The translations under genes and the position numbers were made by a program. Below, in pieces: positions 47,432-52,906 of a stretch of DNA of 64,000 nucleotides (its first letter is position 1; every line of letters begins with the position of its first letter). Source of the DNA: Microbacterium binotii (GTDB lineage: Bacteria; Actinomycetota; Actinomycetes; Actinomycetales; Microbacteriaceae); assembly GCF_021398715.1 (NCBI RefSeq), contig NZ_CP090347.1:2914001-2978000 (forward strand), written 5' to 3'. A model generated the notes under the pieces. It had not been told where the DNA came from and made no database searches. It was given only the letters and a program-made list of their open reading frames with translations.

Positions 47432-49798
47432 GTGCCCACGCCTCGTACCGACCCCCGGTCAGATGTGGGGCCCGAGACGGCTCCCGTGCTCGTCGCCCAC
47501 GTGATCGACCGCGCCCGAGCGGGCGCACGGCTGAGCGTGAACGAGGTTCTCGCCCTCGTCACCGCCGACGGCACCGACCGCGATCTCCTGTTCGCCGCCG
47601 CATCCGCGCTGCGCGACGAGGGTCTCGCTCTCGCCGGGCGCCCCGGCGTCATCACCTACTCGCGCAAGGTCTTCGTGCCCCTGACGACGCTCTGCCGCGA
47701 CCGGTGCCACTACTGCATCTTCGTCGACACCCCGGGCCAGCTGCTGAAGAAGAACAAACCCGCCTACATGTCGCCCGAGCAGGTGCTGCAGGTGGTGCGC
47801 CAGGGGGCGGCGCTCGGATGCAAGGAGGTGCTGCTGACCCTCGGCGACCGCCCGGAGGAACGCTGGCCCGAGGCGCGCGCCTGGCTCGACGAGCACGGGT
47901 ACGCATCCACGCTCGACTACGTCGCGGCGATCGCCCGCCTCGTGACGGCCGAGACCGGCCTGCTCGCGCATCTGAACCCTGGCGTCATGCACGCGCACGA
48001 GCTCGAGACCCTCCGCCCGGTCGCACCCTCGATGGGGATGATGCTCGAGACGACCTCTCGCGCCCTGTTCGAGACGCCGGGCCAGCCGCACTTCGGGTCC
48101 CCCGACAAGGATCCCGCGCTCCGGCTGCAGGTGATCGAGGATGCGGGGGCTGCCCGCATCCCGTTCACCACCGGCATCCTGGTGGGCATCGGCGAGACCC
48201 CGCTCGACCGGGCGGAATCGCTCATCGCGCTGCGCGACGCCGAGGAGCGGCACGGCCACATCCAGGAAGTGATCGTGCAGAACTTCCGTGCGAAGCCGCG
48301 CACCGCGATGCAGGACGCCCCGGATGCGGACCTGCTCGAGTATGCGACGGTCGTCGCGGCGGCGCGGATCGTGATGGGAGCGCGGATGCGGATCCAGGTG
48401 CCGCCGAACCTGTCGGATCCGACCGAGTTCGCTCTGCTCGTCGGTGCAGGGATCGACGACTGGGGCGGGGTGTCGCCGCTGACCGCGGACCATGTGAACC
48501 CCGAGCGTCCGTGGCCGCACGTCGACGATCTGGCGGCGGCGACCGCATCCCTCGGCTACGAGTTGCGCGAGCGCCTCACCGCTCACCCCGAGTACCTCGC
48601 CGACCCCGACACATGGCTCGACCCCGCGATGCACGCCCCGGTCGCTGCCCTCTCCGACCCCGCGACCCACCTCGCCCGCACCGCCTCTCACGTTCAGAGG
48701 AACACCAACCCGAGCGCACGCGCGAGCACCGTGCGGGGGCTGGCGGAGCGGGCAGCGGCCGATCCGCTCGCGCTCGACGACGCCGAGTGGCTGCGCCTGC
48801 TCGAGGCGACGGGCACCGCCCTGGACGACCTCGCGCACATCGCCGACGACGTACGCCGCTACACGGTCGGCGAGGCGATCACGATCGCCGTCAATCGCAA
48901 TCTCACCTCGACCGGTTTCCGCGCGGCGGGCGCGCAGACACCCGACCAGTTCGATCTCGCGGATGCGGCGGCGATCGCCGCGGACGCGTGGGACCTCGGT
49001 GCGACGGAGCTGTGCATCCAGGGCTTGATCGCTCCGCAAGAGGCGCCGGAGGCGTACCTCGACATCGTGCGGGCCGCGCGCGCCGCCGCGCCCGACATCC
49101 ACCTGCACGCCTACCGTCCGCAGGACGTGCAGGACCTCGCCACCCGGAACGGCCTCACGCTCGACGAGGCGTTCGCCGCGATGCGGGATGCGGGCGTCGA
49201 CACCGTTCCGGGCACCGGAGTGAAGGTGCTCTCGGAGCGCATCCGCGGCCTCATCGCTCCCGGCGATCTCGAGATCGACCGCTGGATCGAGACGATCACG
49301 GCCGCCCACCGCGCCGGGTTCCGCTCGACGAGCGTGCTCTTCTACGGTCACGTCGAGACCGCGGCGGAGCGCATCGCGCACCTCGGCACCCTGCGCCGCA
49401 TCCAGTCCGAGACGCGGGGGTTCACGGAGTTCGTCCCGATCCCCCTCCCCGGCCCCGCGGGTGGCATCGGCCTGGTCGAGGGACGCTCGGCGCTCGACGA
49501 GCACCGCGCGATGGCGGCGGTGTCGCGCCTGTTCTTCTCGGGCAGCATCCCCCACATCCAGATCCCGTGGACCCGGCACGGACTCGAGACGAGCGCCGTG
49601 CTGCTGCAGGCGGGCGGCGACGACCTCGGCGGCACGCTGCTCGACGGTCGCGTGCGCCCCGAGGCCGGCATCGAGTCGGGCAACGAGCTTCCCCTCCCGG
49701 ATGCGGCGCGGATCGCCCGTCGGCTCTTCCGCCCGCTACGCCAGCGCACCACGGTCTACGGCGAACCGTCGGACGAGCGCAAGGCGGCGGTGCGATGA
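47432..49798 (+). CDS. fbiC: FO synthase FbiC (CofG-CofH fusion) with a degenerate CofH half
   Basis: A 788-residue two-domain radical SAM protein that makes the F420 precursor FO from diaminouracil and tyrosine. The CofG half (about 60-400) is normal, with CRDRCHYC at Cys88/92/95. The CofH half starts with the usual NRN motif at about 488, but the region that should hold a second CxxxCxxC motif is replaced by a Cys-free stretch about ten residues shorter. Conserved CofH segments resume at GATELCIQG, HLHAYRP, DTVPGTG and FTEFVPIPL. The GTG at 47432 is 6 nt from AAGACT. See findings. Confidence 0.9.
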   Translation: MPTPRTDPRSDVGPETAPVLVAHVIDRARAGARLSVNEVLALVTADGTDRDLLFAAASALRDEGLALAGRPGVITYSRKVFVPLTTLCRDRCHYCIFVDTPGQLLKKNKPAYMSPEQVLQVVRQGAALGCKEVLLTLGDRPEERWPEARAWLDEHGYASTLDYVAAIARLVTAETGLLAHLNPGVMHAHELETLRPVAPSMGMMLETTSRALFETPGQPHFGSPDKDPALRLQVIEDAGAARIPFTTGILVGIGETPLDRAESLIALRDAEERHGHIQEVIVQNFRAKPRTAMQDAPDADLLEYATVVAAARIVMGARMRIQVPPNLSDPTEFALLVGAGIDDWGGVSPLTADHVNPERPWPHVDDLAAATASLGYELRERLTAHPEYLADPDTWLDPAMHAPVAALSDPATHLARTASHVQRNTNPSARASTVRGLAERAAADPLALDDAEWLRLLEATGTALDDLAHIADDVRRYTVGEAITIAVNRNLTSTGFRAAGAQTPDQFDLADAAAIAADAWDLGATELCIQGLIAPQEAPEAYLDIVRAARAAAPDIHLHAYRPQDVQDLATRNGLTLDEAFAAMRDAGVDTVPGTGVKVLSERIRGLIAPGDLEIDRWIETITAAHRAGFRSTSVLFYGHVETAAERIAHLGTLRRIQSETRGFTEFVPIPLPGPAGGIGLVEGRSALDEHRAMAAVSRLFFSGSIPHIQIPWTRHGLETSAVLLQAGGDDLGGTLLDGRVRPEAGIESGNELPLPDAARIARRLFRPLRQRTTVYGEPSDERKAAVR

Positions 49799-51279
49799 CC
49801 CGCGAGGTCGATGTCGCGATCGTCGGCGCGGGGTTCGGCGGACTCGCGATGGCGTCGGCCCTGCGTCGGGCGGGACGGGAATCGTTCGCCGTGCTCGATC
49901 GGGGCAGCTCGGTCGGCGGCACCTGGCGCGACAACACGTACCCGGGCGTCGCGTGCGACGTGCCCTCTCACCTCTACGGGCTCGCGAACCACCCGTGGCC
50001 GGACTGGTCGGGGCTCTTCGCCCGCGGCGACGAGATCCACCGCTACCTGCAGCACATCGCGGAAGCCGAGCAGCTCGGCGAGCGCCTGCAGCTGGACACG
50101 CCGCTGCAGTCGGCGGCGTGGGACGGCGAGCGCTGGCTCGTCGAGACCGGACGCGGCGAGGATGTGCGCGCCCGTCGTCTCGTACTCGCCTGCGGGCGGC
50201 TGACGGAACCGTCGATCCCCGACATCCCGGGACTCGAGACCTTCGAGGGCCCCTTGTTCCATTCCGCGCGCTGGGACCACACCGCGCCTCTCGCCGGCCG
50301 CCGCATCGCCGTGGTCGGCACGGGCGCGTCCGCCGTGCAGCTCGTGCCGGCGCTCGTCGCACAGGGCGCCGAGGTCGTGCTGTTCCAGCGCACACCGGCC
50401 TGGATCGTGCCGCGCGGCGACGTGGACTACACCGCCGCCGACCGGCGCCGGTTCGCCCAGCATCCGGACGAGCTGGCGCGGTTGCGCGACGAGCTGTACC
50501 GGGAGGGCGAGGAACGCTTCGCCTCCCGCTCCGGTGATGAGGATGCGGCGCGCGCCGCCCGCACGGTCGCGCTCGCCCACCTGGAAGCACAGGTGGCGGA
50601 CCCGGCGCTCCGCCGCGCGCTGACCCCGGACTACGCGTTCGGCTGCAAGCGCGTGCTGCTCTCGGACGAGTTCTACCCGGCCGTCGCCTCGGATGCGGTC
50701 GCGTTCGAGCCGTCGGCGCTCGCGCGCGTGGACGGCGGCGAGCTCGTTGCCGCATCCGGCGCCCGCTACCGAGCCGACATGCTCGTGCTCGCGACCGGGT
50801 TCGCCGCATCCGAGCAGCCCTATGCGGAGCTCGTGACGGGCGAGCAGGGCGAGACACTCGCGGAGCACTGGAGTGAGGGGATGACCTCCTACGCCTCTAC
50901 CGTGGTCGCGGGCTTCCCCAACCTGTTCGTGCTCAACGGCCCCAACGCGTCGCTCGGACACAACTCGTCGCTGCTGATGCTGGAAGCTCAGGCGGAGTAC
51001 GTGGCCCGCTGCCTCGACCGTGCCGGCGACGGCATCCTGCGTCTGCGTCCGGATGCGGAGTCGGCGTACACCGCCCGCATCGATGCGGCGGCCGCATCCC
51101 GCCCCTGGCTCACCGGGGGCTGCGACAACTGGTACGTCGACGCCCGGTCGGGAAGGCTCACCCTGCTGTGGCCCGACACCGTCGACGCCTTCCGCGCCAT
51201 GCTGGGTTCCACCGATGGGTCGGAGTTCCTGCCGGCCCCACTGCACCGCGACGCGTCGCGGGCGAGAGGAGAGTCATGA
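49795..51279 (+). CDS. Flavin-containing Baeyer-Villiger-type monooxygenase
   Basis: A 494-residue FAD/NADPH monooxygenase. GAGFGGLAM is the N-terminal FAD motif, GTGASAVQ the NADPH motif, and the sequence FEGPLFHSARW is the BVMO fingerprint (FxGxxxHxxxW). It may oxygenate ketones or heteroatoms. Its ATG overlaps the fbiC stop (ATGA), and its stop overlaps the fgd start, so all are in one operon. Such an enzyme is not part of known F420 pathways. Confidence 0.9.
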   Translation: MTREVDVAIVGAGFGGLAMASALRRAGRESFAVLDRGSSVGGTWRDNTYPGVACDVPSHLYGLANHPWPDWSGLFARGDEIHRYLQHIAEAEQLGERLQLDTPLQSAAWDGERWLVETGRGEDVRARRLVLACGRLTEPSIPDIPGLETFEGPLFHSARWDHTAPLAGRRIAVVGTGASAVQLVPALVAQGAEVVLFQRTPAWIVPRGDVDYTAADRRRFAQHPDELARLRDELYREGEERFASRSGDEDAARAARTVALAHLEAQVADPALRRALTPDYAFGCKRVLLSDEFYPAVASDAVAFEPSALARVDGGELVAASGARYRADMLVLATGFAASEQPYAELVTGEQGETLAEHWSEGMTSYASTVVAGFPNLFVLNGPNASLGHNSSLLMLEAQAEYVARCLDRAGDGILRLRPDAESAYTARIDAAAASRPWLTGGCDNWYVDARSGRLTLLWPDTVDAFRAMLGSTDGSEFLPAPLHRDASRARGES

Positions 51280-52286
51280 CCGTTCCCCTGCGTCTGGGCT
51301 ACAAGGCCTCGGCCGAGCAGTTCTCCCCCGATCGACTCGCCGACTTCGCCGTGCTGGCGGAGGAGGTCGGTTTCGACTCGGTCTTCATCTCCGACCACTT
51401 CCAGCCCTGGATGCACGAGGGCGGTCACGCCCCGGCGGCGCTGCCCTGGCTCGGGGCCGTGGGATCGCGCACCTCGCGGGTATTGCTGGGCACGAGTGTG
51501 CTGACGCCGACCTTCCGCTATCACCCCGCCGTCGTGGCGCAGGCGTTCGCAACGCTCGGGGTGATGTTCCCTGGCCGGGTGATCCTCGGCGTGGGCACCG
51601 GTGAGGCGCTCAACGAGGTGACCCTCGGACTCGACTGGCCCGAGCCGCCCGAGCGGTTCCAGCGCCTCAAGGAGGCCATCACCCTCATCGAAAAACTGTG
51701 GGCGGGCGAGCGCGTCACCTATGAGGGCAACTTCTGGAGTGTGAGCGACGCGACGGTCTACGACCGCCCGACGACGCCCGTGCCGATCTACATCGGCGCC
51801 GCGGGCCCCGCGGCCACACGTCTGGCGGGGCGCATCGCCGACGGCTTCATCACGACGAGCGGCAAGGATCCGAAGCTCTACACCGACACACTGCTCCCGG
51901 CCCTCGCCGAGGGGATCGAGAAAGCGGGACGCTCGAGCGACGACGTCGACACCCTGATCGAGGTCAAGGTCTCCTACGCCGCCGACCGCGAGACGGCGCT
52001 GGAGAAGACGCGCTTCTGGGCACCGCTCGCGCTCAGCGCCGAGCAGAAGATGGGCATCCACGACCCGATCGAGATGCAGCGTCGCGCGGCCGAGCTGCCG
52101 ATCGAGCGCGCCGCATCCCGTTTCATCGTCTCGACCGATCCCGACGAGCACGTCGAGCAGATCGCCCGCTACGTCGACCTCGGTTTCCGGCACCTGGTGT
52201 TCCACGACCCGGGTGAGGACCAGGAGCAGTTCCTGCGCACCTACGGCGAGGAGATCCTTCCGCGTCTGCGCGCCCGCTTCGCGTGA
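51276..52286 (+). CDS. fgd: F420-dependent glucose-6-phosphate dehydrogenase
   Basis: A 336-residue luciferase-like (LLM) TIM barrel, very close to the Mycobacterium FGD pattern: LGYKASAEQF, SDHFQPW with Asp40/His41, TSVLTPTFRYHP and GVGTGEALNE with the catalytic Glu. It reduces F420 with glucose-6-phosphate. The overlap with the preceding gene (ATGA) shows coupled translation. This is the supplier of reduced F420 for other F420-dependent enzymes. Confidence 0.94.
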   Translation: MTVPLRLGYKASAEQFSPDRLADFAVLAEEVGFDSVFISDHFQPWMHEGGHAPAALPWLGAVGSRTSRVLLGTSVLTPTFRYHPAVVAQAFATLGVMFPGRVILGVGTGEALNEVTLGLDWPEPPERFQRLKEAITLIEKLWAGERVTYEGNFWSVSDATVYDRPTTPVPIYIGAAGPAATRLAGRIADGFITTSGKDPKLYTDTLLPALAEGIEKAGRSSDDVDTLIEVKVSYAADRETALEKTRFWAPLALSAEQKMGIHDPIEMQRRAAELPIERAASRFIVSTDPDEHVEQIARYVDLGFRHLVFHDPGEDQEQFLRTYGEEILPRLRARFA

Positions 52287-52906
52287 ACCTCGACTGGACG
52301 ATCGTCGTCCCGCTGAAGGCGGCGGCATCCGGCAAGTCGAGACTGGGCGCGAGTGCCGCACTGGTTCGCGCGATCGGCCTCGACACCGTCGCGGCCGCCG
52401 CCGCGGTCGCGCGCGTCGTCGTCGTGACCGCGGATCGCGAGACGGCAGCGGCGGTGGCGGCGATCGGCGGCGTGACGGTGGTCGCCGAGGAAGTGCCGCG
52501 TGGCCTGAACGCGGCGATCGCGCTCGGGATGCCGGCATCGCACGCGCCTCGTGCGGCGCTGCTCGGCGACCTGCCGGCGCTCCGCTCCGATGACCTGCGC
52601 GGAGCACTGGATGCGGCCGCATCCGTCGACCGCGCCGTCGTCGCGGATGCCGAGGGAACCGGCTCGACCCTCGTCACCGCGCGTGCCGGGGTGACATGGC
52701 GGAGCGCCTTCGGAGTGGACTCGCTGGCCCGCCATCTGGCGCTCGGCTGCGTGCGCCTCGACGTGCCGGAGGAGTCGACGCTGCGTCGCGACGTCGACAC
52801 GGCGGCGCAGCTCGCGGCGGCATCCGCGTTGGGTCTCGGACCCCACTCCGTTCGGTTCTCCACAGGCGACCCGGTTTCGCAGGGAGGCCCTCGCCGAGAG
52901 GCGTAA
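52283..52906 (+). CDS. fbiD: 2-phospho-L-lactate/PEP guanylyltransferase (F420 biosynthesis)
   Basis: A 207-residue GT-A-like nucleotidyltransferase (CofC/FbiD family), which activates PEP or phospholactate with GTP for F420 side-chain assembly. It begins WTIVVPLKAAASGKSRLG, with GDLPALRSDDL and the acid pair near AVVADAEGTGST. The GTG overlaps the fgd stop. fbiA and fbiB are not seen in the window. Confidence 0.9.
   Translation: MNLDWTIVVPLKAAASGKSRLGASAALVRAIGLDTVAAAAAVARVVVVTADRETAAAVAAIGGVTVVAEEVPRGLNAAIALGMPASHAPRAALLGDLPALRSDDLRGALDAAASVDRAVVADAEGTGSTLVTARAGVTWRSAFGVDSLARHLALGCVRLDVPEESTLRRDVDTAAQLAAASALGLGPHSVRFSTGDPVSQGGPRREA

Follow-up and report, generated by a model that had tools for sequence, protein, structure and literature searches.

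According to a 2021 review, all studied producers of F420 form FO by one universal mechanism that depends on two radical-SAM domains (PMC8498797). As outlined there, CofH takes a hydrogen from the amine of tyrosine, and addition of the p-hydroxybenzyl radical to the uracil is followed by oxidation of the product; the two domains of FbiC appear to be independent of each other, the intermediate diffusing (PMC8498797).

We analyzed a 64,000-nucleotide stretch of the Microbacterium binotii genome (the whole stretch is referred to below as the window) that contains an unusual fbiC gene, here designated fbiC*. Its product shares with the known FO synthase FbiC (CofG-CofH) the fusion of the two halves, an intact CofG half, the fold, and the company of other F420 genes. 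It differs in that the CofH half, here CofH*, has neither the cluster cysteines nor the conserved Glu598, is missing the second Gly of QGG, scores below family cut-offs, and is paired with a predicted Baeyer-Villiger monooxygenase (BVMO). The nearest solved relative of CofH* by both sequence and fold is the aminofutalosine synthase MqnE (PDB 6xi9 and 6xig), a radical-SAM enzyme, whereas CofH* has no cluster loop. The BVMO shares its fold, a GxGxxG motif, the BVMO fingerprint, and a conserved KR with steroid, cyclohexanone, and phenylacetone monooxygenases, being 22 to 30% identical to its 50 best fold matches. We know of no role of these three enzymes in cofactor synthesis. In our search, which covered open-access literature, we recognized no description of a CofH*-BVMO variant.

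A CofH half that has lost the radical-SAM cluster

The features of the locus are listed in Table 1. The genes are tightly packed: the start codon of the BVMO gene overlaps the stop of fbiC*, the FGD gene overlaps the stop of the BVMO gene, and the FbiD-like gene overlaps the stop of FGD. The M. binotii genome is a single contig of 3.29 Mb and also encodes CofD and CofE.

Table 1. Features of the fbiC* locus, in positions of the window.
Feature	Position	Strand	Basis
fbiC*, CofG-CofH fusion (FbiC), 788 aa	47432..49798	+	ORF, NCBIfam matches, P0001 cluster length (788 aa)
CofG half, ~residues 1-410; cluster-less CofH* half, ~residues 429-788	within 47432..49798	+	
Intact radical-SAM motif of the CofG half, C88-RDR-C92-HY-C95	47693..47716	+	TIGR03550, 460 bits
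CofH* half as aligned and AlphaFold-modelled	48716..49795	+	
N488-R489-N490 and cysteine-free loop in place of the CX3CX2C loop	48893..49009	+	
N488-R489-N490	48893-48901	+	
R562 of CofH*	49115..49117	+	column comparison
K598 of CofH*	49223..49225	+	column comparison
Type I Baeyer-Villiger monooxygenase (BVMO), 494 aa, proposed CofH* partner	49795..51279	+	adjacency, family, fold
F420-dependent glucose-6-phosphate dehydrogenase (FGD)	51276..52286	+	TIGR03554, 468 bits (cut-off 420)
FbiD/CofC-like guanylyltransferase	52283..52906	+	TIGR03552, 103.4 bits (cut-off 105, just missed); PF01983 above cut-off

A sequence-only reading of the window had claimed that the CofH half lacks the CX3CX2C motif while the CofG half, FGD, and FbiD look intact. 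The absence of the motif was confirmed: the CofG half, which matches TIGR03550 well above its cut-off of 213.35 bits, holds the sole CX3CX2C of the protein (C88-C92-C95). FGD and FbiD-like genes are present. The remaining cysteines are C130 and C528. The latter, the only cysteine of the CofH half, lies within GATELCIQG at a position common to canonical sequences; with only C528 left there, a cluster moved elsewhere in the half was rejected. The segment after NRN had been judged about ten residues shorter than expected, in agreement with the 35 residues that separate NRN from GATE in the window, 11 fewer than the 46 of a canonical row. The same reading was mistaken in stating that no forward frame holds a Cys codon in this segment, since the third forward frame holds two. 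Because that frame nevertheless contains no CX3CX2C, its conclusion that a simple frameshift does not explain the loss still stands. Assembly error, which it had named as a possible refutation, is unlikely, since the 12 closest homologues (P0002 to P0013, 89 to 94% identical) and the wider family also carry the cysteine-free loop. Frameshift and assembly error were thus both rejected as causes, on the frame reading and the homologues. A search of the complete genome for a separate cofH, which had been proposed as a check, revealed none: besides the CofH half itself, TIGR03551 matches only the CofG half of this FbiC.

The changes extend beyond the loop. Against TIGR03551, the CofH half reaches 308.8 bits (cut-off 374.1); the full-length protein reaches 920 bits against NF006687 (cut-off 1018). 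The second Gly of the canonical QGG (G532) is gone, and the canonical Glu598 is replaced by Lys; we take both QGG and Glu598 to have a role in SAM binding in canonical CofH. When 111 CofH* rows were compared with 66 canonical rows, 45 of the 179 canonical-conserved columns were lost in CofH* (17 in the loop and 28 elsewhere), while 68 were kept at ≥90%. Named genomes and those carrying our own G handles may overlap among the rows of this and the other column comparisons, of the 180-row CofH and 172-row CofG trees, and of the distance set described below. The replacement loop varies in length and sequence. At other positions CofH* has settled on residues of its own: position 562 is Arg in all 111 CofH* rows and Ser in all 66 canonical rows, position 598 is Arg or Lys in 103 of 111 compared to Glu in 66/66, and D642, E739, and R743 are replaced by Glu, Gly, and Pro in 110, 107, and 104 of the 111 rows, respectively. 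Judged by this pattern of substitutions, the CofH* half remains constrained and has acquired fixed residues not seen in canonical CofH. An AlphaFold model of the half (mean pLDDT of 92.4) has the CofH/MqnE barrel fold, the best PDB match being MqnE (6xig; TM score of 0.81).

Distribution of CofH* and its linkage to a BVMO

CofH* is, by its sequence distribution, a conserved family rather than a lone decaying gene, and the isolated loss suggested by the window gene gives way to a family found across many genera. Among the best 120 of 954 homologues of the CofH half, the named ones all come from Microbacterium; the NRN loop was visible in 119 (P0081 has no NRN motif), and none of the 119 contains CX3CX2C. 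We also searched 398 Microbacteriaceae genomes with TIGR03551. Some match was found in 102, of which 7 were weak and left uncounted. The remaining 95 comprise 67 genomes with CofH*, 26 with canonical CofH, 1 with a decayed canonical-type gene, and 1 with an unreadable fragment; both forms were found together in none of the 95. The loop was read in all 67 CofH* cases, with CX3CX2C in none, and the motif is present in all 26 canonical ones (25 above the cut-off and one contig-end fragment). CofD accompanies CofH* in 66 of 67 genomes and canonical CofH in 26 of 26. The G177 locus (L126), in which only the last ~80 CofH residues are seen, beside a BVMO and with the loop outside the fragment, was not counted. 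The decayed gene (G198, locus L081) appears by eye to be a frame-broken canonical-type FbiC on a short contig with no adjacent BVMO, reflecting either decay or poor assembly.

Of the 67 Microbacteriaceae loci with the loop read, 66 have a BVMO gene no more than 1 kb downstream of CofH* on the same strand. In the remaining genome, G116, the locus is truncated by the end of its contig, and the BVMO stands at the start of another contig. The BVMO also follows CofH* in 80/80 loci from named GTDB genomes (75 titled Microbacterium; loop pattern read in 68 of the 80), including L156 and L180, whose contigs end inside it. Beside canonical CofH no BVMO was found in any of 26 loci, some of them on short contigs. 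Where CofH* is a separate gene, it keeps its BVMO neighbor whichever way CofG lies: convergent in 7 rows, divergent in 7, and downstream in 1. Across 102 loci, pairwise distances were correlated most strongly between CofH* and BVMO (r = 0.77, partial 0.58), followed by CofG and CofH* (0.70, partial 0.41) and CofG and BVMO (0.65, partial 0.25). In the set assembled for distances, which retained the duplicates L221, L222, and L236, a BVMO is present in 111 of 114 rows (108 of 111 without the duplicates); the three rows without it are contig ends, two of which begin a BVMO.

By sequence and fold, the partner, a flavin monooxygenase, is a type I BVMO. The N-terminal GxGxxG is present in 106/106 rows, [AG]GTWxxNxYPxxxCD in 105, and [FSY]xGxxxH[ST]xxW in 104, the latter two being patterns that we take as type I BVMO fingerprints. 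GC[KR]R is found in all 106 rows and aligns to the KR of cyclohexanone monooxygenase; its Arg is presumably the active-site Arg equivalent to R337 of phenylacetone monooxygenase. By motifs, active-site Arg, and fold, the window protein is a member of the type I BVMOs, with the corresponding predicted activity.

Two observations count against a joint replacement of CofH by the two proteins. A BVMO search was carried out in 52 genomes (26 canonical, 21 without FbiC, the decayed G198, and G116, G155, G177, and G261). Matches above 700 bits occurred only in G116, G155, G177, and G261, but related BVMOs scoring 568 to 581 bits (G039, G262, and G170) and 500 bits (G205), compared to 717 to 806 bits for CofH* partners, are present in canonical genomes, which indicates that the BVMO family has other uses. 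In addition, 28 CofH* loci have a gap of >300 bases between fbiC* and BVMO that is occupied by another gene (for example, L042:9019-9996, L050:6931-7956, and L121:2656-3390), and this gene matches Pfam alpha/beta hydrolases in five of six tested cases, a piece that a two-protein replacement of CofH does not need. In L122, which is also in the gap list, the intervening gene is CofH itself. An alpha/beta hydrolase as an essential third part was rejected, and the hydrolase was treated as accessory; none lies beside the window gene.

Two side observations concern these proteins. The BVMOs of G170, G262, and G039 (L289, L290, and L291) are 43% identical to that of the window and lie away from fbiC; they are possibly paralogues or relicts. 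The hydrolases of L039, L044, and L048 seem by eye to have no nucleophile serine.

Counting Microbacteriaceae, CofH* occurs in at least six families. The CofH*-BVMO pair was found in five further families: f8 (5 loci), f9 (3), f15 (11), f45 (3), and f22 (1). In all 23 CofH* loci found outside Microbacteriaceae, the BVMO follows CofH*. These figures refer to picked regions, with ~17 order-wide matches and most of 168 class-wide matches, among which a CofH* lacking a BVMO may occur, lying outside the loop reading. Of 20 regions picked outside Microbacteriaceae, 19 have a BVMO; the 20th (L257) is a canonical-looking contig-end fragment. The class search, with six regions picked, yielded four CofH* loci, all four with a BVMO. 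Families f8, f15, and f22 encode CofH* separately, with the BVMO after it and CofG on the opposite strand or downstream; in two f15 loci, CofG is absent from the fetched piece. The sequence of the f22 CofH* protein is the same as that of a protein named Gordonia sp. Of the best 120 of its 1122 relatives, 119 could be read (88 by the loop pattern and 31 of the remaining 32 by eye; P0189 lacks the place), and none has the CX3CX2C motif; names among the listed relatives include Gordonia, Williamsia, Nocardia, and Rhodococcus. Canonical CofH is present in two further genomes that share the genus code of the f22 genome (L265 and L275).

Exchange of CofH forms, conservation of CofG, and predicted makers and takers of FO

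In a CofH tree built from 68 rows without the loop columns (L286 left out), a single branch with an SH-aLRT support of 100 splits CofH* from canonical CofH; the same branch is present in a 180-row FastTree tree with a support of 0.625. Duplicates (L221, L222, and L236), fragments (L081 and L257), and short rows were left out before the counts. On the CofG tree (172 rows), the CofH*/canonical label changes at least four times, showing that CofH and CofG did not always travel together. From these trees, CofH* and canonical CofH have been exchanged for one another several times.

CofG itself is nearly unchanged. Only 1 of 166 conserved columns is lost in CofH*-linked CofG (105 CofH*-linked and 66 canonical rows compared), and CX3CX2C is kept in 104 of the 105 CofH*-linked rows; CofG thus probably still receives the same intermediate. 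The clearest case of such an exchange is G155, which combines a stand-alone CofG near CofD, with no CofH after it, and a CofH*-BVMO pair on another contig (L077 and L127). This CofG shares 75 to 79% identity with canonical CofGs from the same genus code and 62% with that of the window, and its six nearest rows on the CofG tree are all canonical; by identity, it is equally near (77 to 78%) to the CofH*-linked CofGs of L036, L049, and L119.

Not all relatives appear to make FO. Among 175 CofD-positive Microbacteriaceae genomes, 82 have no FbiC at all. CofG was above the cut-off in none of 36 such FbiC-less, CofD-positive genomes (one match of 27 bits). Of 31 FbiC-less genomes tested, 26 matched TIGR03868, a proposed F420-0 importer component, above its cut-off, often only a few kilobases from CofD; none of 10 CofH* and none of 10 canonical genomes did. 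Judged by gene content, the FbiC-less genomes look like auxotrophs for FO or F420-0, and their retention of CofD suggests import of FO rather than of F420-0. The absence of the importer above the cut-off makes the 10 CofH* genomes look like makers; importer-like matches below it were seen in two CofH* genomes (204 bits in G164 and 123 bits in G026). Uptake of FO by CofH* genomes is unsupported in the 10 tested with TIGR03868.

Proposed role of CofH* and the BVMO

The loss of the loop, the loss of residues outside it, the constraint on CofH*, its pairing with the BVMO, the exclusivity, and the unchanged CofG are all observed in the sequences. We propose that CofH* and the adjacent BVMO together take the place of radical-SAM CofH in FO synthesis, a reading to which we assign a probability of about 0.7, and we infer that they yield the intermediate that CofH would make. 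The sequence-only reading had offered three options: that another protein performs the CofH step, that the CofH half has a new role, or that F420 synthesis is failing. The first two hold jointly in our proposal, given a CofH* that is constrained, has new fixed residues, and is linked to a BVMO that the earlier reading had not connected with it. The third does not fit with a widespread CofH*, an intact CofG, and the presence of CofD, CofE, FbiD-like, and FGD genes, nor with the 10 CofH* genomes without an over-cut-off importer, compared to its frequency in FbiC-less relatives.

The chemistry of the replacement is proposed by analogy. Any substitute for CofH would have to supply a p-hydroxybenzyl unit at the oxidation level of a quinone methide; by formula sums, quinone methide plus the uracil equals the CofH product in both composition and oxidation level. 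An oxygen-dependent, non-radical route to the C-C bond, in which the BVMO forms an ester and CofH*, with neither cluster nor SAM, alkylates C5 of the uracil, is possible but tentative. Along this route, the BVMO, using NADPH and O2, would act on a carbonyl compound derived from tyrosine, with 4-hydroxyphenylpyruvate and 4-hydroxyphenylacetaldehyde as candidates, and insert oxygen beside its benzyl carbon. The resulting 4-hydroxybenzyl ester could lose its carboxylate to yield p-quinone methide, while the CofH* barrel may bind 5-amino-6-ribitylaminouracil and guide the attack of C5 on the quinone methide; R562 and the Lys or Arg that replaces Glu598 could hold the leaving carboxylate. The product would be 5-amino-5-(4-hydroxybenzyl)-6-ribitylimino-dihydrouracil, the compound of CofH's radical route, and the ordinary CofG half would then close the ring. 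Phenylacetone monooxygenase converts phenylacetone to benzyl acetate with migration of the benzyl group, and YUCCA-type flavin monooxygenases, which belong to class B, act on an aromatic pyruvate, providing a precedent for a substrate similar to 4-hydroxyphenylpyruvate. However, YUCCA-type enzymes decarboxylate their substrate, whereas the proposed step needs benzyl migration, and oxidation of alpha-keto acids often leads to decarboxylation rather than to benzyl migration, which counts against the proposed chemistry.

The cluster retained by nearly all CofH*-linked CofGs would also be expected if CofG performed both radical steps by using one cluster twice, with CofH* serving as a scaffold and the BVMO being unrelated. 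We consider this unlikely: a takeover of the CofH step has left almost no fixed changes in CofG, the new fixed residues are found in CofH*, the BVMO link is steady, and G155 pairs a canonical-nearest CofG with CofH*-BVMO. New conserved residues and a new oxygenase could instead mean that the CofH*-BVMO pair starts from a different aromatic donor and makes another deazaflavin or a modified FO. That, too, is improbable, given that CofG, which would be bound to accept the product, is unchanged, that CofD, CofE, FbiD-like, and FGD genes are present, and that the two CofH forms interchange between related genomes. The loss of the cluster site from a retained barrel agrees with CofH* being a structural partner only, with the BVMO alone making a 4-hydroxybenzyl donor reactive enough to alkylate the uracil spontaneously; with CofH* under constraint and stand-alone CofH* genes staying beside the BVMO, this has an even smaller chance. 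As for a dead CofH half in cells that take FO from their neighbors, FbiC-less genomes with a likely importer indicate that uptake probably does occur in Microbacteriaceae. For CofH*, decay is very improbable and was rejected on constraint and distribution: 68 of the 179 canonical-conserved columns are retained at ≥90%, R562 is invariant, frames are open across six families, and no importer passed the cut-off in the 10 CofH* genomes tested, the two weaker matches aside.

If CofH* and the BVMO do replace CofH, the two-radical-SAM route to FO is not universal, its first step being replaced by another in a large part of Microbacteriaceae and in at least some Gordonia and relatives. CofH* would then be a radical-SAM enzyme turned non-radical that has kept its place in the pathway, and the combination of CofG, CofH*, and BVMO could permit FO to be produced with a single oxygen-sensitive domain rather than two. 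The variant is hidden by current annotation, in which most named proteins are called "FO synthase," "CofG," or "CofGH."

Two sets of records deserve separate mention. L139 and L159, both from records of Microbacterium ureisolvens strain HU12, are two different fbiC*-BVMO loci. L145, from a record titled Planococcus sp. APC 4015, is a Microbacterium-like fbiC*-BVMO-FGD locus under a Firmicute name, which is probably due to contamination or a wrong name.
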